From a virus: a DNA stretch of 29,241 nucleotides. The first letter of the stretch is position 1; each line of letters opens with the position of its first letter. The stretch lies in the IMG/VR virus record IMGVR_UViG_3300047317_000322, positions 1-29,241 of that record; one strand, 5' to 3'. The notes beneath the pieces were generated by a model. The model was not told where the DNA came from and searched no databases. It saw only the letters and a list, made by a program, of their open reading frames with translations. Positions 6,490 to 28,936 of this stretch are shown here, piece after piece. A program made the translations under genes and the position numbers.

Positions 6490-8475
6490 GTGAACATTAA
6501 AGATATTCGTGTTGGTATGTGGCTCGTGTTCGGTCAAGAAAAGCTGCGTATGACCAAAGGCAAGGCATATGAAGTGATTGGCAAAGAGGAGGAAAATCTT
6601 GGTGAAAATGGAATTGTCAATGTGAAGGATGACATTGGCCGTGAGCGTGGTTTCTTCGCCAAACGTTTTGAACGTGTTGCAGATGTGCCGCAAGTAGCGG
6701 CTCCTGTACGGAAGTTTCAGATTGGCGATGTGGTGGCGAACAATTTTGGAAACGAATACGCAGTTATTGGCTTCAATGCTGATGGCTTTTTACACCTCCA
6801 AAGAGACGGTATGATTTTCCGTGGTAATGGGATTGGAGTGGAAAAAGAAGCTCATGGCTATGATCCTGAGCGCTTCAATCTTGTCCGAGCAGTTGCCAAT
6901 GCCCCTGCGGCTGCACCAGAAGCGCCACAACAGGCTGCTGTAGGTGAGGCTATACCCAAGTATGTCCCGAAGATTGGAGACCGTGTACGGCTTATTAATG
7001 GCCGTGGTTTGCCGCGCAATCCTAATGCAGGTTGGGTTCAACAGTTTGATCGAATGGTGGGTCTTGATTTTGTTGTTAGCGACGTTGTCGTTGATAAGAA
7101 ATACGTCCACTTCGAAAACGATAATGGGGCTTGGGCATACGCATTCGCATTCGAATGGCTAGAGCCTGTTGAAGCTGCTCCTGCCCGTCCGTTTGCTGTT
7201 GGGGATATTGTTAAAGAGCCCAACTATCTGAACGAATACAAGGTATTGGAATTGATGGGCGAAGGATACATCCGTATCAGCGGCCGCCGCGACCATGAAA
7301 AGCCGATGGGTAATTTCCGTGAGGCGTTGTTCGTTCTAGTGCGCCGTGGCAATGAGGTTGAAGCCAAGCCCGCTATCATCCAATTGAAGATTGGTGATTT
7401 AGTCAAAGTAGTTAAGGCATTCAAGAGCAGTCCCAAGCTCCATTGGAATGAGTTGATGGAGGACACCATTGGCAAGGTGTACAAGATTCAAAGTTATGAC
7501 GACTGGGCAAAGGCCTATCAACTCTCTAACGGCTGGATGTACTTGGCCGAATCGTTGGAACTCGCCAAAGAGGAAGATATCAAGGTGGCAAAGAAGAAAG
7601 CAGCAGCACAGCCGTCCTTGCGTGATTTGATTGCGCAAAGCCGTAAAGAGGACATTAAGGGTGTTGGTGGTGTGTCCAGCTATGTCGTGTTCCTAAAGAA
7701 CAAAAAGACTGGCGAGATTACGCTGAGCAAGCATCTTCGTGACGTGTGCCATGCTCGCCTTGCTGTGTATTACGGTGGCCGTGAAGATGTTAAGGAAGCT
7801 GTTGCTGTGATTGATTACCAGCAGGCCCACGAAAAGCAAGCATTGGCAGCAGGCAAGCAATACAAGGCAACCTATCGTAAGTTTGTCGATTACATCGTCA
7901 ATCGCTCCCCTTGGGCTGTAGCGTTCCAAGGCAAGACGGTGAAGAATGTATTGGAGAATGGCGTTCTCATGAACGTAGAAGCTCCTAGTGGTGCTGTAGC
8001 TGGTGCATGCCAAGCTCTGCGTTATCTGTCCGAGTTCAACGCACAGAACGCTGTGTGGAAGCTCATGATGGATAACGGCATTCAGGAAGATGCTGCATTC
8101 CTCACCACGTATGCATTCATTGCCGAGAAGGATGGCAATTACACCAAGCACCCTATGGGCGGTGGTCATCAGCCGATCAACGGAGAAATCACAGCAGGCT
8201 CGCTAATTTCTTTCTTTGCCAATGGCTATGAAGAGAAGTTTCTGAAGTCCACGCCCTATCGTGAACAGACGAGTTATCGTGTTCATGAGCATGTTGAGGC
8301 AGTGAAAGACGTGCTGAAGATGCCTGAGACCTACAACGATTTCGTTCTGAATGCAACAGAATGGACGGACGTGAAAGACGGTTGGGCTGTGGTGAAGAAG
8401 GCTACTGAAGAACAAGTGCTGACGTTTGCAAAGCGTCTGGAACAACTCATCAACAAGGCACGGGAAGCAAAGTAA
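6490..8475 (+). CDS. Large protein with five SH3/KOW-like repeats
   Basis: A 661-residue protein from a GTG with GGAGAG upstream. The N-terminal 370 residues contain five related units, each opening with a small-barrel signature: DIRVGMWLVF (5), FQIGDVVANN (75), PKIGDRVRLI (160), FAVGDIVKEP (235) and LKIGDLVKVV (300); positions are rough. Units are joined by Ala/Pro-rich linkers. Residues about 385-661 are mostly helical, with no motif recognised. It heads the operon of peptide-ligase genes, and its stop overlaps the next start (TAATG). It could be a scaffold, a nucleic-acid-binding protein or a substrate of that cluster; none of these is shown by sequence. Confidence 0.85.
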   Translation: MNIKDIRVGMWLVFGQEKLRMTKGKAYEVIGKEEENLGENGIVNVKDDIGRERGFFAKRFERVADVPQVAAPVRKFQIGDVVANNFGNEYAVIGFNADGFLHLQRDGMIFRGNGIGVEKEAHGYDPERFNLVRAVANAPAAAPEAPQQAAVGEAIPKYVPKIGDRVRLINGRGLPRNPNAGWVQQFDRMVGLDFVVSDVVVDKKYVHFENDNGAWAYAFAFEWLEPVEAAPARPFAVGDIVKEPNYLNEYKVLELMGEGYIRISGRRDHEKPMGNFREALFVLVRRGNEVEAKPAIIQLKIGDLVKVVKAFKSSPKLHWNELMEDTIGKVYKIQSYDDWAKAYQLSNGWMYLAESLELAKEEDIKVAKKKAAAQPSLRDLIAQSRKEDIKGVGGVSSYVVFLKNKKTGEITLSKHLRDVCHARLAVYYGGREDVKEAVAVIDYQQAHEKQALAAGKQYKATYRKFVDYIVNRSPWAVAFQGKTVKNVLENGVLMNVEAPSGAVAGACQALRYLSEFNAQNAVWKLMMDNGIQEDAAFLTTYAFIAEKDGNYTKHPMGGGHQPINGEITAGSLISFFANGYEEKFLKSTPYREQTSYRVHEHVEAVKDVLKMPETYNDFVLNATEWTDVKDGWAVVKKATEEQVLTFAKRLEQLINKAREAK

Positions 8476-9104
8476 TGGATAAGCTTGTCTACATCGTCAA
8501 CGGTAACGCTCAATACCGAAGTTTGTTTCAATCATTGGGCTTCAAGGTGGCTCAGGATTTGGGCAAGCATGTCGATCTTGTTTGCTTCACTGGTGGGGCA
8601 GACGTAACCCCTGCAATGTATGGGGACAATAAACACCCCTACACAGGAAACGACATTGCACGAGATCAGTTTGAAGTGCGTATGTTCGACAAGGCTAAGG
8701 ACTTGGCTATCCCGATGGTGGGTATCTGCCGTGGTGGTCAATTCCTGAATGTCATGAGCGGTGGGCGCATGTATCAGCATGTCACCAAGCATGGCATTCA
8801 CGGCACACACGACATGATTGATGTGGAGACAGGTGAACACATCCCTGTTACGTCCACTCATCATCAAATGTTCATGCCCAGTGAGCAAGCTATCATCGTT
8901 GCAATTGCTACGCTTGGTGGTGAGCGTGAGTGGTATGACGGAGAAGTGTTCAAGCGGGATGTGAGCAATACGGATTACGAAGTGGTGTATTACGAAGCCA
9001 CCAACAGCCTGTGTTTTCAGCCGCACCCTGAATTCAATGGCGAAGGTCTTGAAGCAATGAAAGACTATTTCGCTCGTTGCCTTAACAAATACCTCGGAGT
9101 TTGA
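8475..9104 (+). CDS. Class I glutamine amidotransferase / gamma-glutamyl hydrolase-like
   Basis: A 209-residue protein with the class I glutaminase triad: nucleophile Cys85 in GICRGGQFLN, and His184 and Glu186 in QPHPEF. An oxyanion-type TGGADV lies near residue 40. The SxHHQ segment is typical of the gamma-glutamyl hydrolase / PuuD-like branch (peptidase C26). Such enzymes cleave gamma-glutamyl amide bonds or release ammonia from glutamine. All key residues are present, so it should be active. In this operon it may trim or recycle a gamma-glutamyl product or supply ammonia. The start overlaps the upstream stop (TAATG). Confidence 0.85.
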   Translation: MDKLVYIVNGNAQYRSLFQSLGFKVAQDLGKHVDLVCFTGGADVTPAMYGDNKHPYTGNDIARDQFEVRMFDKAKDLAIPMVGICRGGQFLNVMSGGRMYQHVTKHGIHGTHDMIDVETGEHIPVTSTHHQMFMPSEQAIIVAIATLGGEREWYDGEVFKRDVSNTDYEVVYYEATNSLCFQPHPEFNGEGLEAMKDYFARCLNKYLGV

Positions 9105-9105
9105 A

Positions 9106-9456
9106 ATGTGGGAATTTCTGCGTAAGATCGGTGCTCGTGTAAATGCTTTCGGCAATGAAGATCATCTACCGTGCTACATCAACCGTGCCACTGTGACCGA
9201 TGACTTCGACAAGGTGTCTCTGATTCGTGAGTACATCGAACAGTGCAAGAAAGAGAAGGGTGATGGGGCGTATCGCCAAATCAGTACCCTGTTGTTCAGT
9301 GTCACTGAGAACGACAAGTGGCACAAGAAGTGGCTGCTTGTTGCAGCAAAGGACGGCCATGTAGTGATTGAAGGAAGTTCGATTCATGGTGATTACAAGT
9401 GCTGGTCGATCATCGTTCAGAACAACCTGTTCACGAGGATGACACGCTACCGCTAA
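9106..9456 (+). CDS. Hypothetical protein in peptide-ligase cluster, 116 aa
   Basis: ATG at 9106 follows the preceding TGA by one base. The protein has an N-terminal helix (MWEFLRKIGARVNAF), a charged middle (EYIEQCKKEKGDGAY) and a C-terminal half of likely strands (KKWLLVAAKDGHVVIEGS). It has no membrane span and no recognised motif. Position between two enzyme genes suggests a role in the cluster. Confidence 0.7.
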   Translation: MWEFLRKIGARVNAFGNEDHLPCYINRATVTDDFDKVSLIREYIEQCKKEKGDGAYRQISTLLFSVTENDKWHKKWLLVAAKDGHVVIEGSSIHGDYKCWSIIVQNNLFTRMTRYR

Positions 9457-9480
9457 GGATTTGTCACGTCCATACGTCTC

Positions 9481-9492
9481 ACACTTTGTAAC
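9481..9492 (+). repeat. ACACTTTGTAAC box without TTGACA
   Basis: The same 12-mer that overlaps three early promoters lies 10 nt upstream of the HExxH gene start, but here without a preceding TTGACA. A near-copy, ACACTTTGTAAT (9825-9836), lies across the stop of the same gene, before the class II amidotransferase. Possibly an operator within the operon. Confidence 0.5.
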
Positions 9493-9502
9493 AGAGGATG
9501 GA

Positions 9503-9835
9503 ATGAAGAAGTACATTGCAAACCCCTACGGCTCAGAAGTGTTCTTTACACAGGACGCCAACCGATTCAAAAGATTGGCGGGGTTTGCTGTGGAAGATGC
9601 TGCTGGTGTAACGCATTGGGATGAAAACGGAACAGCTATCATCATGTACGTTGGTGATGGGCTGTTAGAGACATTGGTGCATGAATGTTGTCATGCCGTC
9701 TTGTATATCTTTCAGCGTGTGGGAATTGATCCTGCATGTGGAAATGGGGAACCTATGGCATATCTGCTTGATTCAATGTTTACCTGTTTCAAAGATGAAA
9801 TGAATAAACACGTCTGTACTCCAGACACTTTGTAA
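9503..9835 (+). CDS. HExxH putative zinc metallopeptidase-like protein, 110 aa
   Basis: The ATG at 9503 has AGAGGATGG upstream; a longer in-frame TTG start at 9461 lacks support. The protein carries HECCH (His60, Glu61, His64) followed by a helix and GEPMAYLLD, where Glu83 could be a third ligand. This pattern fits small phage zinc-peptidase-like proteins. If active, it would hydrolyse a peptide bond; a peptidase beside amide-bond-forming enzymes could process a precursor or remove a tag. The Cys pair inside the HExxH is unusual. Catalysis is inferred only. Confidence 0.65.
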   Translation: MKKYIANPYGSEVFFTQDANRFKRLAGFAVEDAAGVTHWDENGTAIIMYVGDGLLETLVHECCHAVLYIFQRVGIDPACGNGEPMAYLLDSMFTCFKDEMNKHVCTPDTL

Positions 9836-9861
9836 TTTAACTTGATTTAGTGGGGTGGGCT

Positions 9862-11226
9862 ATTTGTGGAATCGTGGGAATTGCCGGTGAATTGGATGGT
9901 AAGGCAGACAAGGTACTGAAACATTTGTTGATTTTTGACACTGTACGTGGAGAAGATTCCACTGGAGTTGCCACTGTTGGACGCCATAACGAAGATGTTC
10001 TCGTGGCTAAGACGCTTGGCAATCCGTATGAACTGTTTGAACATCGCTTGTACGGCAAGACAGTAACAGGGCGTCAGAACCGTGTTGTCATCGGCCATAA
10101 CCGATATGCCACATCTGGTGGTGTGAGCAAAGCAACGGCACATCCTTTCGAGTTTGACACGTTGGTAGGCGTCCATAACGGTACGCTTCACAACAAGCAT
10201 GTGCTGGACAATGCCGGTGACTACAAGGTTGATTCAGAAAACCTATATCACCACATTGAGAAGAATGGCTTGGATGCCGCAATCAAAATCATCCGTGGTG
10301 CTTGGGCTCTCGTGTGGTGGGACAAGGAAGAAGAAACCATCAACTTCCTGCGTAACAAAGAGCGGACGCTGTACTACTGCGTCAACGAAGCAGGCAATCA
10401 GTTGTACTGGGCATCTGAATCTTGGATGCTAGAAGTTGCTCTTTTCCGCAACGATATCAAGCACAAGGGGATTCAACTTTTCGAAGAAGATACCCTCCAT
10501 TCCGTTCCTGTAGCTAAGGGCGGAAAGCTTGGTAAACCGGTGTTGCGAAGGATTGTGAATGATCCTGCTCCGCTGCCTGTTCAACAGGGGAGGGTGTATG
10601 ACAATCGCCACTCTTTTACGAAGGGGACTACTACTGGTTCTAGCGGCAGTCAGTCCCCTAAGAACAACGTGGCAAAGCTTGAGAAGCCTGCTAACGCAAA
10701 GATAGACAGCCGCAGCAAGGTTGATGCGGAGTTCATGCAGGCAAAAAAGCTGGTGTTGGAAGCTGTAGTGGTGGTGCAGGAAAAGACTGGAGCAGAGTAC
10801 GTGCTTTGCTTCTGTCCTGATAAGCCCTTCTACGAAATCCGTCTGTACGTTCACAGCAAGCACGCTGTTCAGCAAGACATTGGCTGTGAGTTCGAAGGGG
10901 ATATTAGTGGCTTCGTTCAGACAGAGAGTGAAGGTGTTGGGTATTACAAGGTGAGCCCACATGGAATCATCATCACAGCTACAGCAGATGCCAATGCATG
11001 TACGGCTGTTGGCACTGTTGGTGAGTACCTAACCCACGATGGCAAGTATCTCGGCAAGGCAGATTGGGAAGCAGTGTATGGCACCTGTGCATTCTGTTCC
11101 GACAACATCGCAGCAGACGACATGCTGGATAAGGGCGCACGTCTTACCAAGGCTGGTGATGCTCTGTGTGGTGGTTGTATGCAGGATGAAGAAATCAAAC
11201 AGTACGTTAATACGGTGGAAGTCTAA
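9862..11226 (+). CDS. Class II (Ntn) glutamine amidotransferase with C-terminal zinc-ribbon-like end
   Basis: An Ntn-hydrolase glutaminase domain in residues 1-210: Cys2-Gly-Ile-Val-Gly, RGEDSTG (29-35), GHNRYAT (78-84), HNGT (105-108) and DSE (124-126). All match the catalytic set of PurF/GlmS/AsnB-type glutaminase domains, which release ammonia from glutamine. The remaining 240 residues have no recognised synthase domain and end with CAFC...CGGC, a likely zinc site. The nucleophile Cys must be N-terminal. The in-frame codon before it is ATT, with GGGG six nt upstream, so an ATT start is proposed. The alternative GTG at 9850 lacks a ribosome binding site and would leave a five-residue leader. 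Confidence 0.85.
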   Translation: MCGIVGIAGELDGKADKVLKHLLIFDTVRGEDSTGVATVGRHNEDVLVAKTLGNPYELFEHRLYGKTVTGRQNRVVIGHNRYATSGGVSKATAHPFEFDTLVGVHNGTLHNKHVLDNAGDYKVDSENLYHHIEKNGLDAAIKIIRGAWALVWWDKEEETINFLRNKERTLYYCVNEAGNQLYWASESWMLEVALFRNDIKHKGIQLFEEDTLHSVPVAKGGKLGKPVLRRIVNDPAPLPVQQGRVYDNRHSFTKGTTTGSSGSQSPKNNVAKLEKPANAKIDSRSKVDAEFMQAKKLVLEAVVVVQEKTGAEYVLCFCPDKPFYEIRLYVHSKHAVQQDIGCEFEGDISGFVQTESEGVGYYKVSPHGIIITATADANACTAVGTVGEYLTHDGKYLGKADWEAVYGTCAFCSDNIAADDMLDKGARLTKAGDALCGGCMQDEEIKQYVNTVEV

Positions 11227-11243
11227 TTTCTAAGGAGTAGTAC

Positions 11244-12041
11244 ATGACTAAAATTCTCGTTGGCGCGGACCCTGAAGTGTTCGTGAAGAAGGATGGCGTA
11301 TTCAAGTCGGCACATGGTCTTATCAAGGGGGATAAAAAGAACCCTCAGAAAATCCATCGTGGTGCTGTTCAAGTGGATGGCATGGCGTTGGAATTCAATA
11401 TTGACCCGGCTGCAAGCGAGGATGAATTCTGTCTCAATGTGCAAGACGTTTTCGCAGCAATGTGTGCAATGGTTCCGGGTTATGAAGTGGTGGCAACTCC
11501 AGTGGCTCACTTCGATCCGGCGTATATGAAAGCCCAACCGGAAGAAGCGAAGGAGCTTGGCTGTGATCCTGATTACAACGCTTGGACTGGTATGGCTAAT
11601 CCGCGTCCTGATGGTGAGCGTTCTTTCCGTACTGCTTCGGGCCATGTGCACATCGGTTGGACGAATGGGGTGGACGCAGCATCGGGAATTCATCTGGCGC
11701 AAGCTAATGCGGCTGTCAAGCAGATGGACTTTTACCTCGGCCTTCCGTCCTTGCTCTATGACCCGGATAGCGAGCGTCGTGAAATGTATGGCAAGGCTGG
11801 CGCATGCCGATACAAGAGCTACGGGGTGGAGTATCGCACTCTTTCGAATGCTTGGCTCAAGAGCGAAAGCCTGATGCGTTGGGTGTTCCGTGCTGTTCAG
11901 AAGGGTATGAACGATCTGATGCAAGGCAAGGCTCTCGTGGATACGTTCGGTGATGTGCAGGAAGTGATTAACACGTCCAACGTCACGGAAGCGAAAGCTA
12001 TCATCAAACACGCAAAACTGGAGGTTGCAAATGCTGTCTGA
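11244..12041 (+). CDS. phiEco32-like COOH-NH2 ligase (glutamine-synthetase fold)
   Basis: A 265-residue protein resembling the predicted COOH-NH2 ligase type 2 family named after phage phiEco32. Visible motifs are GADPEVF (7-13), a second acidic strand with DGMALEF (45-51), SGHVHIGW (132-139), and the basic block YGKAG..R.K..GVEYRTLSN (182-202). The Glu-rich and His/Arg positions suit ATP and metal binding in the glutamine-synthetase fold. Such enzymes are predicted to join a carboxylate to an amine, making an amide. Length is typical for the family. The neighbouring glutaminase could supply ammonia. The substrate is unknown. Confidence 0.85.
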   Translation: MTKILVGADPEVFVKKDGVFKSAHGLIKGDKKNPQKIHRGAVQVDGMALEFNIDPAASEDEFCLNVQDVFAAMCAMVPGYEVVATPVAHFDPAYMKAQPEEAKELGCDPDYNAWTGMANPRPDGERSFRTASGHVHIGWTNGVDAASGIHLAQANAAVKQMDFYLGLPSLLYDPDSERREMYGKAGACRYKSYGVEYRTLSNAWLKSESLMRWVFRAVQKGMNDLMQGKALVDTFGDVQEVINTSNVTEAKAIIKHAKLEVANAV

Positions 12042-12141
12042 AACACTTCTTGTATGGATTTTCGTGGTTCCCTTCGGGGTTTCAGTTTTGGGGATGGTTG
12101 GGGCTTTTATTTACTGCCTGTACAAACTGCTTACGGAGTGA
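12031..12141 (+). CDS. Very small membrane protein, 36 aa
   Basis: ATG at 12031, with GGAGG six nt upstream, lies inside the end of the amidoligase gene in another frame. The peptide is one hydrophobic span (LLVWIFVVPFGVSVLGMVGA) followed by a short basic-acidic end. The strong ribosome binding site makes it credible. It places a membrane component inside the peptide-ligase cluster. Confidence 0.65.
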   Translation: MLSETLLVWIFVVPFGVSVLGMVGAFIYCLYKLLTE

Positions 12142-12144
12142 ATA

Positions 12145-12738
12145 ATGCCGCATGAAATGAGTATTGACGATATTCGTCAGAAGTACGAACAATCGGTTGT
12201 GATGTACAAGAAGAAGCCGGTGTTGTTCAAGAAGATTAGTGGGGACTTCTCCGTTCGTATCTTCGATCTGATGGCACAGAAAGAGGAGCAAGTGGAGTTT
12301 GACATGAAGGAGTTTCAACCTCCTCCTTCTCGTGTTGGCTTTGTCAACATCAACGGTAGTGTTGTCTACGCAGTGCGTAACGCTATCCGTCGATACAAGC
12401 TTGGACTCTCGAAAGAGAACTTCAATGTTCAGGTGTTGGGTGTCCCGTATCCCGATGGCCGTTCTGACGTGTATGTAAGGCTCGTGGCGGGCTTGGAGCG
12501 ACGTGAGCTAGGGGAGGCATTGCTTAGCAAGTATCCGACCCTTCAGCAGGCTATACGCCGTGTCTCACAGTTTGAGGGTGCATGTGCATTCGACAAGCAA
12601 TTCGCTATCGATCATACCCATGCTGTGTACTACAAACTTCAGCAGGTTGGCCGATTGGTTAACGGTGCTGTCCAGTTTGACGAAGGCTTCGAACATCTTC
12701 ACATTCTTTTGAACAAAGGCTATGAAAAAAGTAATTGA
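12145..12738 (+). CDS. Hypothetical protein of the peptide-ligase cluster, 197 aa
   Basis: ATG at 12145 with GGAG upstream. The protein opens MPHEMSIDDIRQKYEQSVVMYK, has a strand-rich middle (VGFVNINGSVVYAVRNAIRRYK) and a helical C-terminal half. No enzyme motif or membrane span is visible. It lies between the two glutamine-synthetase-fold ligases and overlaps the second by 17 nt. It may be a partner or substrate-recognition protein for them. Confidence 0.75.
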   Translation: MPHEMSIDDIRQKYEQSVVMYKKKPVLFKKISGDFSVRIFDLMAQKEEQVEFDMKEFQPPPSRVGFVNINGSVVYAVRNAIRRYKLGLSKENFNVQVLGVPYPDGRSDVYVRLVAGLERRELGEALLSKYPTLQQAIRRVSQFEGACAFDKQFAIDHTHAVYYKLQQVGRLVNGAVQFDEGFEHLHILLNKGYEKSN

Positions 12739-13750
12739 GTTGTTGGGCTGCAAGAGCCAACGCGGTGACATTGGTATCGAGATTGAATGCGAAGGTGACA
12801 ACATGATTGCGCTAGACGAAGCTGTTTGGCGCAGTGAGGATGACGGGAGCTTGCGAGGGATTTATCCCACAACTCGCTGTGAGTACATCTTGGCTAAACC
12901 GCTCAAGATTGACGCAGTTCCTGTTGCTCTTGATGGCCTCTCCAAGCGTCTGAAAGAGGCCGGTGCTGTTCTCGAATTCAGTCACCGTTGCAGCGTGCAT
13001 GTGCATGTGAACGTACAGCAGCTTGAGTATCAACAGCTTCTGGCTTTCATGTACACCTACTACCTGCTTGAAGAACCCTTCATGACCTATTGCGGCAAGA
13101 GCCGTAAGGGAAACAACTTCTGCCTACGCTTGCAAGACGCAGAGGGTGTTCTCGAAGTGGTGAATCACATGTTTGAGCTTGGTGAGGAAGGTATCCACCA
13201 CATTGGTCAGGACCGCCAACGATATGCCGCAATGAACTTCGAAGCCCTGCGTAAGTATGGCTCTGTTGAGTTCCGTGGTATGGAAGGCAATATGAATGTG
13301 CGTCGTATCAGTTTGTGGTGCGAAGCATTGATTCGTATGCGTCAATTCGCTGTGCGTATGGACAATCCAAAGGCTGTGTATGACCTGTTCACGAAAACTG
13401 GTCCTGTGGATTTTGTCTCTGAAGTGTTGGGGGATATCTCTGCGGAATTCCACTACGTTCGTTTTGTGAAGGATGTTCAGAAGTCCTTCTCAATCAGCCT
13501 TGACCTTCCGTTCAAGTTTGAATCCTTCCTGAAGCAGCCGAAGGATGATGGCGAGTATCAGCTTGGTCAGATGGTGAACTATGCAACGGCTGTGAAGATT
13601 GCCAAGAAGGGATATCAACTCGATTACGGCCCTGATGGCATGTACAAGATTGTTGTGCTTCCTAAGAAGCCGAAGGCTATGAAGCCTGCATATGCAAATA
13701 TCGCAGCCCGTGCTTGGGAACTCCAACCTAACGATGAAGTGGACTTCTAA
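12722..13750 (+). CDS. Amidoligase enzyme (second glutamine-synthetase-fold ligase)
   Basis: A 342-residue protein with the pattern of the predicted Amidoligase_2 family: GIEIECEG at 18-25 (acidic metal-binding strand), CSVHVHVNV at 90-98, and GSVEFRGMEGN at 180-190. The family adopts the glutamine-synthetase / gamma-glutamylcysteine-synthetase fold and is predicted to form amide bonds using ATP. It differs clearly from the ligase at 11244, so the cluster holds two distinct ligases of one fold. Its end overlaps the ATP-grasp start (TAATG). Substrate unknown. Confidence 0.85.
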   Translation: MKKVIELLGCKSQRGDIGIEIECEGDNMIALDEAVWRSEDDGSLRGIYPTTRCEYILAKPLKIDAVPVALDGLSKRLKEAGAVLEFSHRCSVHVHVNVQQLEYQQLLAFMYTYYLLEEPFMTYCGKSRKGNNFCLRLQDAEGVLEVVNHMFELGEEGIHHIGQDRQRYAAMNFEALRKYGSVEFRGMEGNMNVRRISLWCEALIRMRQFAVRMDNPKAVYDLFTKTGPVDFVSEVLGDISAEFHYVRFVKDVQKSFSISLDLPFKFESFLKQPKDDGEYQLGQMVNYATAVKIAKKGYQLDYGPDGMYKIVVLPKKPKAMKPAYANIAARAWELQPNDEVDF

Positions 13751-14481
13751 TGAAAATCTATCCGTACATGAATGGCAGCAAGAGCGCTAAAGCGTTGGCT
13801 GAAGGGTTGGGTATCAAGGTATTGCTGCGTGAGGGCAAGCCCGTAAAGAACCATCTGGTGATTAACTGGGGGTGTTCTGCGATTGACCGAGAGGTTGGGG
13901 GAAAGATTCTCAACAATCCTGTCAACGTTGCCGGTGCAGCTAATAAGCTTCTTACGTTCCAGATGTTTGCTGCTAACGATGTCCCTACGGTGGAATGGAC
14001 TACGGATAGGGACCAAGCAATCTTGTGGATGGGTGAGGGACACTCTGTAGTTGTTCGGGAGAAGTTGACCGGACATAGCGGGGAAGGCATTGTCATCGTT
14101 AAAGACAACGATGCAGTTCCCAATGCCCCCCTCTACACCAAGTACACGAAGAAGAAGGATGAGTACCGAATCCATGTGTTCGGGGGGGAAGTTATTTTCC
14201 AACAGCGTAAAGCACGAAAGAAGGAAGTTCCCGATGACCAAGTTAATTGGCAGGTTCGTAATCTTGCTGGCGGATTCATCTTTGCGAACGATCAGATTGA
14301 TGCCCCTGAGTGTGTTAAAGAAGCTTCCAAATCCGCTGTTCAAGCTCTTGGTTTGGACTTCGGTGCAGTTGATGTTGGTTTCCGTGAAGGGGCATGTGTT
14401 GTCTACGAAGTGAACACTGCTTGTGGCCTTCAAGGAAAAAATCTTGAAGCTTATGTAAAAGCTTTCCAAGCAGCGGGGTAA
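13750..14481 (+). CDS. ATP-grasp ligase, RimK/glutathione-synthase-like
   Basis: A 243-residue protein with ATP-grasp signatures: a Gly-rich nucleotide loop in VREKLTGHSGEGIVIV (102-117), a Lys/Asp-rich strand DEYRIHVFGG (137-146) and the metal-binding EVNTACGL (220-227). ATP-grasp ligases activate a carboxylate as acyl phosphate and join it to an amine. It is shorter than RimK but contains the full core. As the last enzyme of the cluster, translated by TAATG coupling, it adds a third ligase of a second fold. It could add amino acids to a peptide or modify a host or phage protein. Confidence 0.85.
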   Translation: MKIYPYMNGSKSAKALAEGLGIKVLLREGKPVKNHLVINWGCSAIDREVGGKILNNPVNVAGAANKLLTFQMFAANDVPTVEWTTDRDQAILWMGEGHSVVVREKLTGHSGEGIVIVKDNDAVPNAPLYTKYTKKKDEYRIHVFGGEVIFQQRKARKKEVPDDQVNWQVRNLAGGFIFANDQIDAPECVKEASKSAVQALGLDFGAVDVGFREGACVVYEVNTACGLQGKNLEAYVKAFQAAG

Positions 14482-16704: not shown

Positions 16705-16856
16705 GCCACACATATCGAATTAACCCTGAGACCTACGAAGAAGAAGTAGAGCGACGATATCTAGACCACAAGAAGCGGAAGAAAGAACGTGATGAACGGC
16801 TGAAACTTAAGGAAGCCGCGCTTCTTGAGGAGGCAAATGACGAATCAAGTAATTGA
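16701..16856 (+). CDS. Highly charged helical protein, 51 aa
   Basis: ATG at 16701 overlaps the previous stop (ATGA). About two thirds of residues are charged, with a Lys/Arg/Glu-rich helix (ERRYLDHKKRKKERDERLKL). It may form a coiled coil or bind nucleic acid. It carries the ribosome binding site of the sigma-like gene within its end. Not recognised. Confidence 0.6.
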   Translation: MSHTYRINPETYEEEVERRYLDHKKRKKERDERLKLKEAALLEEANDESSN

Positions 16857-17322
16857 AGAACACTACAGGAAGAACTTTGACAACCTTTGCAAGAAGCTCA
16901 GCTTTCGAGCAGGTACGCTTTGGGATGCAGAAGATGCAATCCATGATGCTTACGAACGGGCTATTAAATACTTTGGCTCTTTCGATCCAAGCAAATCCAC
17001 TTTTGGCGCTTGGTTTAATCGTATTGTTGTAAACGCAATCAAGGAGCATTACAACCACAACCAAGGACGTAATGATGTTGAGTTTGAAGAAGATATGGTT
17101 GACGGGATTCCTTGTGGGCATTATGCGGATAAAGTTGTTGCTGAAATCCGTGACCGAATCCAAACCCGTAAGCCCCACATTGCCGAAATCCTGCATCTAT
17201 TCTTCGAGAAAGGATATGGAGCAAAGGACATTTCACGCATGGTTGAAAGCTCCCATATTGCAGTTAATCAAACCATCTTCCGCTTTCGGGAAGAACTGAG
17301 AAAGGACTACCGTAGCGAGTGA
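16837..17322 (+). CDS. ECF-like phage sigma factor
   Basis: A 161-residue protein from ATG 16837, which follows GAGGAGG. Residues about 10-75 match sigma region 2: DAEDAIHDAYERAIKYF, then FDPSKSTFGAWFNRIVVNAIKEHY, the -10 binding and core-binding helices. Residues about 110-160 match region 4, a helix-turn-helix with GYGAKDISRMVESSHIAVNQ and a basic end. Regions 1 and 3 are absent, as in ECF sigma factors. In phiEco32 an ECF-like protein redirects host RNA polymerase to phage promoters. This gene probably does the same for middle or late genes, such as the minus-strand late genes at the edges. Confidence 0.85.
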   Translation: MTNQVIEEHYRKNFDNLCKKLSFRAGTLWDAEDAIHDAYERAIKYFGSFDPSKSTFGAWFNRIVVNAIKEHYNHNQGRNDVEFEEDMVDGIPCGHYADKVVAEIRDRIQTRKPHIAEILHLFFEKGYGAKDISRMVESSHIAVNQTIFRFREELRKDYRSE

Positions 17323-19202
17323 AAGTAAGAGTATTCGATACTGAGGCAAACAATCTCTATCCTGCGGTAACTGTTTGTCATTGCGGCGTATTCACTAGCC
17401 TAGATGGAAAGGAAGTAGACAAGTTTCCTCCTGAGCGGCAGCAGGACATGCTTCGGTTTATGGATACTTGTGATGTACTGATTGGGCATAACGTCATAGG
17501 CTATGACTTCCCGATGCTCAAGAAGGTGTGTGGATATGTGTTCAAGGGTAAGGTGGTAGACACCCTGCTCATGTCTCGTGCACTCAACCCTAAACGTTTT
17601 CTCCCTCCACATGCGAAAGATCGTAGAGCAGGCCCTCACAGCATTTATGCTTGGGGCGTTAGAGTTGGGGTTGATAAGCCCGAACACGAAGATTGGGAGA
17701 ATTATTCTCCTGAAATGCTTCACCGATGTACCGAAGATGTAGAAATCAATCGACTCACCTACCACGCCTTGATGAAGGAGGCGGCTGAGTCTGGTGGGAA
17801 GTGGAGGGATGCGTTCCTCCTGACGTTCAAGCTTTTCCAGAATCTCCAAGAGCAAGAGGAGTATGGCTGGTACGTGGACAAGCAGAAAATGCTTGACAAC
17901 ATCGTTGAACTTGAGCAGCTTATGCAAGAGATTGATGATGAAGTGATCCCGCAACTGCCTAACATCCTTGAGATTTTGGAGGTAAAGAAAGATGGACAAG
18001 TCAACTGGGTACGGAAGCCCTTCCTCAAGAGCGGCAAGCCTTCTGAATCGAGTAGCAAACATTTTGGACTGGACGGGTGTGCTTGCATTGGCGGTCCCTA
18101 TAGTCGTATTGGTTTTCGCCCTGTTGACCTAAACAGCCGTAACGAGGTTGTATCCTATCTTCTGAAGGAGGGTTGGGAACCTCTTGAGTGGAACTACAAT
18201 GATGACGGAGAAAGAACGTCGCCTAAGCTTTCTAAGGATGATCCATTCGAAGGCGTGGAGGGCGAGGTTGGAAAGCTCGTTTCCAAACGAGTGCAGTGTC
18301 GGCATCGAAAATCTCTCGTTGAAGGCTTACTTGAGCTTGTGCGAGACGATGGCCGTATATCAAGCAGTATTGCCGGGATGGCTGTTACCGGCAGAATGCA
18401 ACACCGAGGAATTGTAAATATCCCCGGAGAAAAATCTTTCTTCGGCCACGAGATTCGCCAGATATTCTCCTGCCCACCCGGCAAAGTGATTGTTGGGTGC
18501 GACTCAGATGCTTGTCAGATTCGTATGCTCGCGGGTCGGATGAACGACCCTGCATATACGGAAACCGTCATCAACGGTAAGAAAGAAGATGGCACTGACA
18601 TGCACACAGTAAACATGAATGCCACAGATGGACTCGTTACTAATCGTGACGATGCCAAGACGTTCTTCTATGGCTTTCTGTTTGGTGCGGGGGATGGGAA
18701 GGTTGGGAAGATCATTAAGGGGACTGCTGCACAAGGGAAGATGTTGAAAACGAAGTTCATTGATGGGCTTCCCGCCTTGAAGGCACTACTCGAAAAACTT
18801 ACGGCAGAGTGGAGGGCAACTGCCAAGAAACGGATGAATAAGAAGTTTGATCGAATCGAATACTACGATGGAACCATCATTGGTTTAGATGGCCGTCCCA
18901 TCAAAATCCCCTCAGAGCATCAGTTGCTTGTCTATATGCTTCAGTCGGACGAAGCAATAATGATGGCTGCTGCATACTGTAAAGTAAATTCAGACCTATC
19001 AAAGCGGTATATAAAAGGTAAGCAGTTTGGATTTCTTACATGGATGCACGATGAATACCAAATCGAATGCGATGAAGATATTGCAGATGACGTAGGTAAG
19101 ATCGCAGCAGCAGCAATCGAATGGGCAGGGAAGTATTACAAAATCCCATGCCCACATAAAGGGGACTATAAGATTGGTAGAAATTGGGCGGAAACTCACT
19201 GA
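17319..19202 (+). CDS. Family A DNA polymerase with 3'-5' exonuclease, T7 gp5-type
   Basis: A 627-residue replicative polymerase. The N-terminal proofreading domain has Asp7/Glu9 (FDTEANNLY), Exo II in IGHNVIGYDFPML (52-64) and Exo III in CTEDVEINRLTY. Polymerase motifs are A with Asp395 (GCDSDACQIR), B with Lys447 and Tyr451 (DDAKTFFYGFLFG), and C His577-Asp578-Glu579. All catalytic residues are present. It is somewhat shorter than T7 gp5 (704), so a thioredoxin-binding insertion may be absent. A GTG start overlaps the sigma stop (GTGA), linking sigma and polymerase synthesis. Confidence 0.95.
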   Translation: MKVRVFDTEANNLYPAVTVCHCGVFTSLDGKEVDKFPPERQQDMLRFMDTCDVLIGHNVIGYDFPMLKKVCGYVFKGKVVDTLLMSRALNPKRFLPPHAKDRRAGPHSIYAWGVRVGVDKPEHEDWENYSPEMLHRCTEDVEINRLTYHALMKEAAESGGKWRDAFLLTFKLFQNLQEQEEYGWYVDKQKMLDNIVELEQLMQEIDDEVIPQLPNILEILEVKKDGQVNWVRKPFLKSGKPSESSSKHFGLDGCACIGGPYSRIGFRPVDLNSRNEVVSYLLKEGWEPLEWNYNDDGERTSPKLSKDDPFEGVEGEVGKLVSKRVQCRHRKSLVEGLLELVRDDGRISSSIAGMAVTGRMQHRGIVNIPGEKSFFGHEIRQIFSCPPGKVIVGCDSDACQIRMLAGRMNDPAYTETVINGKKEDGTDMHTVNMNATDGLVTNRDDAKTFFYGFLFGAGDGKVGKIIKGTAAQGKMLKTKFIDGLPALKALLEKLTAEWRATAKKRMNKKFDRIEYYDGTIIGLDGRPIKIPSEHQLLVYMLQSDEAIMMAAAYCKVNSDLSKRYIKGKQFGFLTWMHDEYQIECDEDIADDVGKIAAAAIEWAGKYYKIPCPHKGDYKIGRNWAETH

Positions 19203-19656
19203 GCCTAACAAGGCAAAGGAAATCGTTATCGAGTTGGATGGAGAGTGCATGATTTGCACTTCTCACGTACCCAATCATGACGGGTACATTCGAATCTTCC
19301 AAGGCAGCGAATCTAAGAAGCGTTATGAAATGCTTCACAGAATGTCTTGGATGCAGCACAAGGGTCCAATCCCAAGCGGCATGGAAGTAGATCATAAGTG
19401 CCGTAACAGAAGGTGCTGTAATCCAGAGCATCTGCAACTCCTCTCCGAATCAGAGCACAAATCCAAGACTAACCGAGAACGGTATGCCGATAGAATTTCG
19501 GCAATAGTGGAGTGCATTCTGAACGGAGAAAAGTCGAAAGGTATCGCAGCTAAGTTTGGTGTAAGCCAACACACAGTTACCTACCATAAGCGAAGGGTGA
19601 CGGGTGTAACACGAACGTTCACATGGAGAAATCGTGACAAACAACGAACTGATTGA
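19174..19656 (+). CDS. HNH homing-type endonuclease with C-terminal HTH
   Basis: A 160-residue frame starting at TTG 19174 (AAAGGGG upstream; the start is uncertain and overlaps the polymerase end). The HNH core is at about residues 54-95: HRMSWMQHKGPIP, then EVDHKCRNRRCCNPEHLQLL. The C-terminal part includes a helix-turn-helix (SKGIAAKFGVSQHTVTYHKR) that would guide DNA recognition. Such genes insert next to conserved replication genes and spread by cleaving copies lacking the insert. Position directly after the polymerase is typical. Confidence 0.8.
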   Translation: MVEIGRKLTEPNKAKEIVIELDGECMICTSHVPNHDGYIRIFQGSESKKRYEMLHRMSWMQHKGPIPSGMEVDHKCRNRRCCNPEHLQLLSESEHKSKTNRERYADRISAIVECILNGEKSKGIAAKFGVSQHTVTYHKRRVTGVTRTFTWRNRDKQRTD

Positions 19657-20215: not shown

Positions 20216-20932
20216 ATGGGTTTGAACGCATCGAAGGTCAAAGGCGGTAACGCAAATAAAGTAGAACAGCCGGTGATGGAAGCAGGTACTTATCCTGCAC
20301 GATTGGTACAAGTGATTGACTTTGGCCTTCAGCCTCAACGAGCTTTCAAGGGTGATCCTAAGCCACCTGCACATGAAATCTCCACCACGTATGAATTCGT
20401 AGATTGCTTTATGGTGGACGAGAAGGGTAACGATATTGAAGATAAGCCACGTTGGGTGAGTGAGAGTTTCCCTCTCCGTAACATCATGGCTGAGCTTGCA
20501 ACTAGTACGAAGCGAGCTAAGGCACTGGACCCGGAAGGTATTCATAACGGTGACTGGCCTGCAATGCTTGGCAGTCCTGTGAATGTAACTGTAGTGATTA
20601 ACGAGAGCAAAGGTAAGTTTTATACGAACATTGCTTCCACTGCCACCATGCGAGCTAAGGACGCTCAGAAGTGTCCTGAGCTGAAGAACGATACCAAGTT
20701 CTTCGATTTGAGCGAGCCTGATTTGGAAGTGTTTAACAGCCTTCCTGAATGGATTCGAGAGAAGATTAAGGGGAATCTGAATTATGCTGGTTCGAAACTT
20801 GAAGCGTTGCTTGGTGGGGAAGCTCCGCCTGAGAAGAAAAAGGCAGAAGCACAGCCCGAACAACCGAAGAAGCAGCGAGAAGTACCTGATGAGGTGGGTG
20901 AGGAAGGCGTAGAGGAAGATGCGCCGTGGTAG
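20216..20932 (+). CDS. Putative single-stranded-DNA-binding protein
   Basis: A 238-residue protein. Residues about 18-150 look strand-rich (GTYPARLVQVIDFG, then PVNVTVVINESKGKFYTNIAS), consistent with an OB-like fold. From about 200 it becomes a Pro/Glu/Lys linker and ends in a strongly acidic tail (DEVGEEGVEEDAPW) finishing with an aromatic residue. Acidic tails ending in an aromatic residue are characteristic of phage and bacterial SSBs such as T7 gp2.5, where the tail contacts polymerase and helicase. Position between polymerase and exonuclease fits. The fold itself is not proven by motif. Confidence 0.7.
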   Translation: MGLNASKVKGGNANKVEQPVMEAGTYPARLVQVIDFGLQPQRAFKGDPKPPAHEISTTYEFVDCFMVDEKGNDIEDKPRWVSESFPLRNIMAELATSTKRAKALDPEGIHNGDWPAMLGSPVNVTVVINESKGKFYTNIASTATMRAKDAQKCPELKNDTKFFDLSEPDLEVFNSLPEWIREKIKGNLNYAGSKLEALLGGEAPPEKKKAEAQPEQPKKQREVPDEVGEEGVEEDAPW

Positions 20933-21318
20933 TTTATGTGAAGGGCTTTGAAGGTCTGTACGAAGTGTGGGAGAACGGGATTGTCGTGTCCGTTCTCCGT
21001 CAGACCTCTGACACTTTTAAGGGAAAGCCGCGGCTTCGTTGGCAAGGTGGAAAGATACTGGCGCAAGTTCGTAATAAGCGTGGGTATATGAAGGTCATGT
21101 TGTGGAAGGATAACAAGATGTACACCAAACTTGTACATCGAATTGTGGCCGAAGCCTTCCTTGATAACCCTGAAAACAAACTTGAGGTAAATCACATAGA
21201 CGGCAATCCTAGTAATAACCATGTGACCAATCTTGAATGGAACACTCGTGTAGAAAATGCGAGACATTCAATTGATGTGCTTAGACGTTGGCCGAGGTTG
21301 CGATGCGCCAGTGTCTGA
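20926..21318 (+). CDS. HNH endonuclease with NUMOD4 motif
   Basis: A 130-residue protein from GTG 20926 (GTG 20938 is an alternative). The N-terminal NUMOD4-like segment is GFEGLYEVWENGIVVSV; the HNH core is HRIVAEAFLDNPENK, then EVNHIDGNPSNNHVTNLEW. This is the usual homing endonuclease layout in phages. It is inserted between the SSB candidate and the exonuclease gene and overlaps both by a few bases, so it has become part of the operon. Confidence 0.85.
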   Translation: MVVYVKGFEGLYEVWENGIVVSVLRQTSDTFKGKPRLRWQGGKILAQVRNKRGYMKVMLWKDNKMYTKLVHRIVAEAFLDNPENKLEVNHIDGNPSNNHVTNLEWNTRVENARHSIDVLRRWPRLRCASV

Positions 21319-22106
21319 TTGATGCGGATGTGCTCTTGTATGAAATAGGCTTCGCTAGTGAGACGGCATGGAAACATGCCTCTCCCAACTCAGACGATCC
21401 TCCTCCTTGGAGCAAAGTTGAGGAGTTATTGCACCAGCGTATTGAGCACATTGAACATGCATGTGAAGCAACCGTTCCTTCAATCTTCTTTCTAACAGGC
21501 AATGGCAATTTTCGCTATGAGTTGGCTAAACGAACTCCTTACAAGGAACGCGTTGGACACAAACCGTTTCACTACAAGAACATCAAAGCCTACATCAAGG
21601 GTTGTTTCGAATACCGAGAAACGGACGGCCTTGAAGCAGACGATCTTATGTCGATTGAGCAAACTCTTCGAGGGGACGAAACCATTATCTGCACTAGAGA
21701 CAAAGACTTGCGCAGTGTGGATGGATGGCATTATGGATGGGAACTCGGAGAGCAGCCTTCGTTCGGACCTTTCAGAGTGGATGGTTATGGAGCTATTTTT
21801 CTTAGTGACGACCGCAAGAAAATCACAGGCTACGGGCTCAAGTTCTTCCTCTCACAGTGCCTAACTGGGGACAGGGTAGACAGCATTCCCGGATTGCCCA
21901 AATGCGGGCCTGTAGCAGCCTTTGAGAGGTTGGTTGATACCAGCACATATGCCGAGGGCTTGGAAGCCGTAGCAGAGGCTTACAGAGGCCCCTACCCCTG
22001 TACATGGGATGTTGAGTTGACAGAGCAGGGTAGGTTGCTCTGGATGACTCGGAAGCTCAACGAGGATGGTACGCCTGTCCTATGGGATGTGCATGCCACG
22101 TACTGA
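21303..22106 (+). CDS. 5'-3' exonuclease (FEN/Pol I 5'-nuclease family)
   Basis: A 267-residue protein; ATG 21303 with GAGG upstream is preferred over TTG 21288. Acidic metal ligands are visible: Asp7/Asp9 (LIDADVLLY), Glu111 with Asp113/Asp114 (DGLEADDLMS) and Asp133/Asp135 (CTRDKDL). The helix-hairpin-helix at 188-205 (LTGDRVDSIPGLPKCGP) contacts DNA. These enzymes remove RNA primers and flaps and help recombination; T7 gp6 plays this role. The motifs are complete, so it should be active. Confidence 0.9.
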   Translation: MRQCLIDADVLLYEIGFASETAWKHASPNSDDPPPWSKVEELLHQRIEHIEHACEATVPSIFFLTGNGNFRYELAKRTPYKERVGHKPFHYKNIKAYIKGCFEYRETDGLEADDLMSIEQTLRGDETIICTRDKDLRSVDGWHYGWELGEQPSFGPFRVDGYGAIFLSDDRKKITGYGLKFFLSQCLTGDRVDSIPGLPKCGPVAAFERLVDTSTYAEGLEAVAEAYRGPYPCTWDVELTEQGRLLWMTRKLNEDGTPVLWDVHATY

Positions 22107-22482
22107 GTTCAATGGAGGTAAATGGACAGAAGCAAAGTTTCATTCGTTCGTCAAATCGGCTCTACGGGCTGCTTCTCGCAAATGGCCCCCGAAGTACGAA
22201 ACGATAAACGATGCATATGTCGGAACCCAAATCAATGCATCAAGTGGTCGCCTAGCAAAGCACTTCCGGTGTGCAGCTTGTGCAGGCTTATTCACCAGCA
22301 CGAACATTCAGGTTGACCACATCAACGCTATCATCGATCCGAAAGTTGGCTTCACCAATTGGGACGATGTTGTTAGCGCGATGTTCTGTGAAAAAGAAAA
22401 TCTTCAAGTTCTTTGTAAAGCATGCCACAAGATTAAGACGGCAGAAGAACGAAAACTAAAAAAGGAATCAAAGAATGGATAA
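22093..22482 (+). CDS. HNH nuclease with two Cys pairs
   Basis: A 129-residue protein; the start at 22093 (MPRTEFNGGKWTEAKF) is inferred from where a typical N-terminus would lie, and in-frame ATGs at 22066 and 22087 are possible. It contains a zinc-binding CAAC and CKAC pair around an HNH core (NIQVDHINAIID). The basic C-terminal end is KKESKNG. Unlike the other HNH genes it lacks NUMOD motifs. It may be a resident phage nuclease for DNA processing rather than a homing gene. Confidence 0.75.
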   Translation: MPRTEFNGGKWTEAKFHSFVKSALRAASRKWPPKYETINDAYVGTQINASSGRLAKHFRCAACAGLFTSTNIQVDHINAIIDPKVGFTNWDDVVSAMFCEKENLQVLCKACHKIKTAEERKLKKESKNG

Positions 22483-28441: not shown

Positions 28442-28936
28442 ATGCTAATTGAAATCTGGAAGCCGACTTACGTAGAAGGCTATGAAGTGTCTAACTTTGG
28501 ACAAGTACGGAACATCAAAACTAACCATATCCTCTCACCCACTGTTAAGCCGAAAGGCTACAAAGAGCTTAGGCTTAAAGGGAAATGGTGCAGTGTCCAC
28601 AGACTTGTTGCGAAGGCTTTCATAGATAACCCAAACAACTATCCGCAAGTTAATCACAAAGATCACAACGAAGGTAATAACCTAGTTCTCAATTTGGAGT
28701 GGTGTACTGGTGCGTACAATATAGAATATTCACAAGCCAAAACTTTTTATTTCAAAAGTCCAGAAGGTGTTGTGAGTAAGGTCCACAACCTGAATTCGTT
28801 CTGCCGTAGGTTCGGTTTGCCTACAGGAAACATGCACAGATTGTGGACAGGAAAGCACAAAAAGATTAAAGGGTGGACTCGCGCCTCAGCCGAGGATTTT
28901 CTTGACGTAATTCCTAGTCTCTGCGGGAATATATAA
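28442..28936 (+). CDS. Homing-type HNH endonuclease on the opposite strand
   Basis: A 164-residue protein; ATG 28442 with TAGGAGA upstream. NUMOD4-like start: WKPTYVEGYEVSNFGQVRN. HNH core: HRLVAKAFIDNPNNYPQ, then VNHKDHNEGNNLVLNLEW. The C-terminal part carries a DNA-binding-type module (LNSFCRRFGLPTGNMHRLW). It lies against the direction of its late-gene neighbours, and its 3' end overlaps the transglycosylase gene by 51 nt. Both facts point to a mobile gene with its own expression. Confidence 0.9.
   Translation: MLIEIWKPTYVEGYEVSNFGQVRNIKTNHILSPTVKPKGYKELRLKGKWCSVHRLVAKAFIDNPNNYPQVNHKDHNEGNNLVLNLEWCTGAYNIEYSQAKTFYFKSPEGVVSKVHNLNSFCRRFGLPTGNMHRLWTGKHKKIKGWTRASAEDFLDVIPSLCGNI

Follow-up and report, generated by a model that had tools for sequence, protein, structure and literature searches.

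A gamma-glutamyl clue to the amidoligase cassette of an uncultured phage

What might a phage build with three different ligases and two glutamine- or glutamyl-cleaving enzymes encoded side by side? The question is raised by virus record IMGVR_UViG_3300047317_000322, whose 29,241 bases we analysed as a whole and call the window. Five complete enzyme genes lie within positions 8475-14481, encoding a Peptidase C26-type enzyme (C26), a class II glutamine amidotransferase (GATase II), two ligases of the glutamine synthetase (GS) fold, namely a COOH-NH2 ligase (L1) and an Amidoligase_2 (L2), and a RimK-like ATP-grasp ligase. A first-pass annotation had described them as a peptide-ligase cluster, an idea that is not itself new: a "peptidoglycan modification cassette" has been named, as a prediction, in phages PSA-HP1, RIO-1, phiEco32, 7-11, PA11, tf, MR299-2, LUZ24, PaP3 and CW02 (PMC5498523), the same cassette has been predicted in a LUZ24-like phage (PMC11945000), and amidoligase and GATase genes have been predicted in OM43 phages (PMC10580990). 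The window shares its gene order with two members of the Zobellviridae, Salinivibrio phage CW02 and Pseudomonas phage PA11, and the nearest relatives found are phages of 48-52 kb. The source is an uncultured podovirus-like phage of this type, and there is hardly any doubt that it carries a full copy of the known cassette. What we add is a wider conserved unit, with a protein (X) between L1 and L2 and the core of a second protein (B) as members, and an exchange between C26 and gamma-glutamyl cyclotransferase (GGCT).

Firstly, the genes are held together in related phages. The coordinates of the open reading frames (ORFs) were checked against the window and agree with those of the first-pass annotation; families were called with Pfam at curated cut-offs, which four of the enzymes exceed, and with PHROG and NCBIfam, the ATP-grasp ligase being identified by PHROG 2599. 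Related loci were gathered, their ORFs called and then searched with profiles built in this analysis, giving 101 loci (numbered L002, L003 and so on below) and a full-flank set of 62 in which L1 has 6 kb or more before it and 4.5 kb or more after it. Within this set, L1 is present in 62 loci, L2, the ATP-grasp ligase and GATase II in 61 each, X in 59, B in 54, C26 in 53 and GGCT in 16, a linkage far above chance expectation. The survey of linkage that the first-pass annotation had proposed thus bears out its grouping of the ligases with GATase II, and independent occurrence was not seen. A tblastn search of the whole collection of phage records agrees with these counts (L1 316, L2 325, ATP-grasp 310, GATase II 324). 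L1 was found in more than 300 sequenced phages, including phages of E. coli and Pseudomonas, and the viral contigs with it number at least 569. A scan of a genome collection, by contrast, gave just 10 matching contigs, all metagenome-assembled, and the plasmid search found none. Furthermore, the gene order varies from one phage group to another, e.g. c-N-L1-X-L2-A and L1-X-L2-N-A-g (N, GATase II; A, ATP-grasp; c, C26; g, GGCT), and the content is retained. Based on this distribution, the linkage and the constancy of content despite changes in order, the genes appear to be phage-bound and functionally coupled.

Secondly, the conserved unit is wider than first reported, since it also takes in the gene at 12145-12738 (X) and the core of that at 6490-8475 (B). 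L1, X and L2 are consecutive in 97 of the 101 loci, and X is retained even though its identity falls to 16-20% among distant phages. No Pfam family matched X. Its AlphaFold (AF2) model, predicted like that of B from an alignment of the window and viral-contig sequences, has a predicted local distance difference test score (pLDDT) of 91; its best PDB matches are SH3, KOW, Tudor and PWWP domains, all weak and none with E <= 0.001, and the strong matches to its structure come from phages alone, one of them being a CW02 protein. Because its conserved residues are chiefly Gly, Arg and Pro, we read X as a binding or scaffold protein, likely a scaffold or adaptor for both GS-fold ligases. B combines variable N-terminal repeats with a conserved C-terminal core, which lies directly 5' of the C26 gene in 50 of the 54 full-flank loci that have it; Aeromonas phage 4_4572, HP1 and phiM6 each have at this position a protein with weak similarity to the core. 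The AF2 model of the core has a pLDDT of 90, and a structural search with it found no PDB match. Its conserved residues (C420 in 65/65, R511 in 69/69, E515 in 66/69, S473 in 64/69 and H560 in 62/65 relatives) are suggestive of an enzyme. The first-pass annotation had considered B as a protein that the cluster might tag. B does belong to the cassette; however, neither its N- nor its C-terminus is conserved, and the same holds for X, so that neither is likely to be an end-tagged substrate. A substrate with a conserved tail was thus not supported for either protein.

Thirdly, C26 and GGCT appear to replace one another. The 62 full-flank loci comprise 45 with C26 only, 8 with GGCT only, 8 with both and 1 with neither, so that at least one of the two is present in 61, and in L032, L034 and L035 GGCT occupies the C26 slot between B and GATase II. 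The complementarity has a Fisher p of 3e-5, with the loci treated as independent and shared ancestry ignored. No GGCT was detected in the window, nor in the stretch searched of PA11, a phage to which the pathway has been ascribed by name. GGCT alone therefore does not define the cassette; the mark to look for is a gamma-glutamyl-cleaving enzyme, GGCT or C26, and the window has its C26. The PDB relatives of this enzyme are 3fij, 7d4r and 6vtv (PuuD), and among the named NCBIfam models it comes closest to those of gamma-glutamyl amide hydrolases, making it a putative gamma-glutamyl amide-cleaving enzyme. The substrates of C26 hydrolases and gamma-glutamyl cyclotransferases carry a gamma-L-glutamyl group whose alpha-amine is free. 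Since C26 and GGCT interchange, GGCT cannot supply ammonia, and the activity common to both is cleavage of gamma-glutamyl amides, the pathway may put on a gamma-glutamyl group that is later removed, rather than use a second glutaminase; to this step we give slightly less than an even chance.

Are the enzymes likely to be active? In alignments of 25-39 relatives, the predicted catalytic residues of the enzymes are invariant or nearly so. The Cys-His-Glu triad of the Peptidase C26 family is present in the window protein, and C85, H184 and E186, together with S127, H129, H130 and Q131, are invariant in 25/25 sequences. In L1, D9, E11, D45, E50, H134, H136, R178, R189, K191, E196 and R198 are invariant (alignment A1), and in L2, E20, E22, E24, E54, H93, H95, R128, E183 and R185 are so in 33/33 sequences; the metal and ATP residues K66, R103, E138, D208, E220 and N222 of the ATP-grasp ligase are kept in 39/39. 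By conservation, then, the ATP and metal ligands of the three ligases are in place, as the first-pass annotation expected. Residue conservation and gene linkage together support the view that the ligases would be active and serve one pathway. The ATP-grasp ligase is RimK-like only, as it scores 40.7 bits against TIGR00768 (rimK_fam, the RimK family proper), under the cut-off of 143.4; membership of the R2K clade was rejected (Pfam R2K_2, 15 bits against a cut-off of 26.2). Sequence searches with L1 and X yielded no significant PDB relatives.

Class II N-terminal nucleophile (Ntn) amidotransferases need their nucleophilic Cys at the N-terminus. In the window enzyme this Cys is internal when the listed GTG start is used, and the codon preceding it is ATT. 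The pair ATT-TGT is found in the window, L004 and L008, whose upstream extensions differ, and most relatives with an intact start have ATG-TGT or ATG-TGC. Since the Cys must be N-terminal and the start codon of most such relatives lies directly before it, the gene probably starts at position 9862 with ATT, a rare start codon. The motifs of this enzyme are thus intact, as had been claimed, provided that this start is used.

Table 1. Genes of the cassette region in the window, with the family matches on which the assignments are based.
Feature	Position	Strand	Evidence or remark
B, 661 aa, N-terminal repeats and C-terminal core	6490..8475	+	core aa 390-655 (DNA 7657-8475); unannotated unit member
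C26-type gamma-glutamyl hydrolase-like enzyme, class I GATase fold	8475..9104	+	Peptidase_C26 PF07722 6.1e-21, 75.6 bits (cut-off 20.5)
116-aa protein, sporadic	9106..9456	+	6/62 loci; no family matched
HExxH (HECCH) protein, accessory	9461..9835	+	PHROG 1365 1.1e-22
Class II (Ntn) glutamine amidotransferase, Cys-rich C-terminal tail	9862..11226 (probable start; listed ORF 9850-11226)	+	GATase_6 PF13522 4.7e-17, 62.7 bits (cut-off 27); PHROG 4736 3.5e-75
L1, GS-fold COOH-NH2 ligase	11244..12041	+	PF14395 5.3e-8, 32.8 bits (cut-off 25); PHROG 3815 1.4e-91
36-aa single-span membrane peptide	12031..12141	+	hydrophobic ORF; conserved counterpart in L002
X, 197 aa, tandem SH3-like, unannotated core member	12145..12738	+	PHROG 11055 5.8e-21
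L2, GS-fold Amidoligase_2	12722..13750	+	PF12224 1.8e-10, 41.6 bits (cut-off 22); PHROG 7469 8.1e-62
ATP-grasp ligase, RimK-like	13750..14481	+	PHROG 2599 1.6e-83; NCBIfam rimK_fam 1.7e-10

Other genes of the region are less constant (Table 1). The HExxH gene, which the first-pass annotation had counted among the enzymes of the cluster, exists, but among the loci searched it occurs only in the window and L002 (1/62 with full flanks) and was rejected as a core part. In many relatives (L003, L006, L008, L009, L010, L012, L016 and others) its position, between C26 and GATase II, is taken by an ATP-grasp gene, which some of them have besides one after L2. In L028 and L033, from Sinorhizobium and Rhizobium phages, a second class II amidotransferase gene follows the ATP-grasp gene. 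The small genes had been described as membrane and secreted: the membrane peptide has its counterpart in L002, while L003 leaves no space between L1 and X, and we found no support for secreted products. Elsewhere in the window, a phage-encoded RNA polymerase sigma factor gene (16825-17322; PHROG 1740, 3e-15) lies just past the primase/helicase gene, the ORFs at 19174-19656, 20926-21318, 22066-22482 and 28442-28936 resemble HNH endonucleases, judged by eye from their translations, and PADLOC returned zero matches to anti-phage defence families.

The best overall explanation, in which our confidence is evenly balanced, is a cytosolic assembly line with a gamma-glutamyl protection step. The enzymes would act in the cytosol during the middle phase of infection, with GATase II feeding ammonia to one GS-fold ligase, and the second GS-fold ligase and the ATP-grasp ligase attaching amino acids. 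One ligation would mask an amine with a gamma-glutamyl group, and C26, or GGCT in some relatives, would take this group off again, following the logic of butirosin synthesis or of the bacterial PuuA/PuuD route for polyamines. X would hold the two GS-fold ligases, and B might be a further enzyme. As acceptor, either a soluble precursor of the cell wall or a small molecule is more probable than a protein end; that it is specifically a cell-wall precursor seems doubtful. A tentative version is that the cassette acts neither on peptidoglycan nor on protein ends and that protection and deprotection yield a new, soluble small molecule or peptide containing gamma-glutamyl, with B an unrecognised enzyme family and X a dedicated scaffold for the two GS-fold ligases. 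As to timing, ORF42-48 of PaP3 are middle genes (PMC4707531), and the cassette ORF numbers in the PaP3 record match ORF42-48. In phage FJK, two sequentially evolved stages carry missense changes in genes annotated as amidoligase and aminotransferase, among other mutations (PMC11450229).

Several points weigh against the protected assembly line. The catalytic residues were judged from sequence conservation rather than from modelled ligase structures. Eight loci hold both C26 and GGCT, and the complementarity of the two may stem partly from shared ancestry, the GGCT-only loci representing perhaps four or five lineages. The window covers only 29 kb, against genomes of about 48-52 kb in relatives, and our literature search found no biochemistry or experiment for any member of the cassette.

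Among the alternatives, modification of peptidoglycan, already proposed in the literature, is a possible one: the three ligases would build unusual linkages into the stem peptides of cell-wall precursors, thereby blocking superinfection or preparing lysis. Most of the hosts listed in annotations are Gram-negative bacteria, whose walls are chemically alike. The endolysins of 49 cassette phages (the counts cover cassette-carrying phages alone) include 33 with a Phage_lysozyme match and none with Amidase_2, which would fit altered stems that leave glycan cleavage unhindered. However, 6 of the 49 have M15-type peptidase lysins, and the predominance of muramidases speaks mildly against a version where the cassette would prepare stem peptides as targets of the endolysin that the phage itself encodes. 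Moreover, GGCT and C26 do not act on the internal gamma-D-Glu of the stem, and because they need a gamma-L-glutamyl group with a free alpha-amine, "peptidoglycan degradation genes", as they have been labelled in print, is a poor description.

Somewhat less probable is tagging of a protein, with the RimK-like ATP-grasp ligase and the amidoligases adding or amidating residues on a protein of the phage or of the host (in the latter case e.g. a ribosomal protein or an RNA polymerase subunit). The nearest NCBIfam models of the ATP-grasp ligase include RimK and peptide maturases, relatives of the cassette are expressed in the middle phase beside replication genes, and protein modification has been proposed for other phage peptide ligases (PMC7824862). 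Against this, the ATP-grasp ligase resembles RimK only distantly (PDB E 0.1), and the obvious candidates within the cassette, X and B, lack conserved ends.

That the cassette has two separate ammonia-supplying glutaminases, the class I enzyme serving one GS-fold ligase and the class II enzyme the other, is improbable. Both enzymes have glutaminase-superfamily folds with intact catalytic residues, and the first-pass annotation had named both glutaminases. For the class II enzyme this is supported, but for the class I enzyme the name is doubtful: it is a C26 protein with gamma-glutamyl amide hydrolases as its closest kin, and relatives swap it for GGCT, which cannot give a ligase ammonia. Finally, mere co-travelling of unrelated auxiliary genes in one phage lineage can be dismissed as highly improbable: many surveyed loci are related and share a gene order, yet the set is kept in differing orders in phages as far apart as phiEco32, PaP3, Sinorhizobium phage phiM6 and a ~103 kb Aeromonas phage.

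The COOH-NH2 ligase of the cassette is carried by more than 300 sequenced phages, and some of the E. coli and Pseudomonas phages among them have been studied for therapy. Now that C26 and GGCT are seen to be exchanged and two companion genes to have been overlooked, tests can be aimed at a single defined bond and at a few proteins.

How does the window compare with known systems? For the idea of the phage cassette, PMC5498523, PMC10580990 and PMC11945000 cite Iyer et al. 2009 and Hardies et al. 2013, and the making of unusual peptidoglycan linkages is its putative function in the literature. Like the window, the known cassette has a COOH-NH2 ligase, an Amidoligase_2, an ATP-grasp ligase and a class II amidotransferase, near a DNA primase/helicase gene in the loci compared. 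Unlike in the accounts of that cassette, the window has C26, no detected GGCT and an extra accessory HExxH gene; X and B go unnamed in the later accounts, to which this comparison is confined. 

The Puu/Pau polyamine pathway combines a GS-fold gamma-glutamylpolyamine synthetase with the C26 hydrolase PuuD. Similarly, the window pairs GS-fold ligases with a C26 enzyme that has PuuD and the 7d4r protein among its relatives; the phage ligases, on the other hand, belong to PF14395 and PF12224, L1 lacks a sequence match to a solved structure, and no oxidase or dehydrogenase genes were recognised in the cassette. In butirosin synthesis, BtrJ and BtrG provide gamma-glutamyl protection. The window differs in having C26 where GGCT would be, and no carrier protein was recognised. 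The GGCT-bearing relatives, one of which, phage tf, has its GGCT annotated as BtrG-like, resemble butirosin synthesis in combining an ATP-dependent ligase and a gamma-glutamyl cyclotransferase in one pathway.

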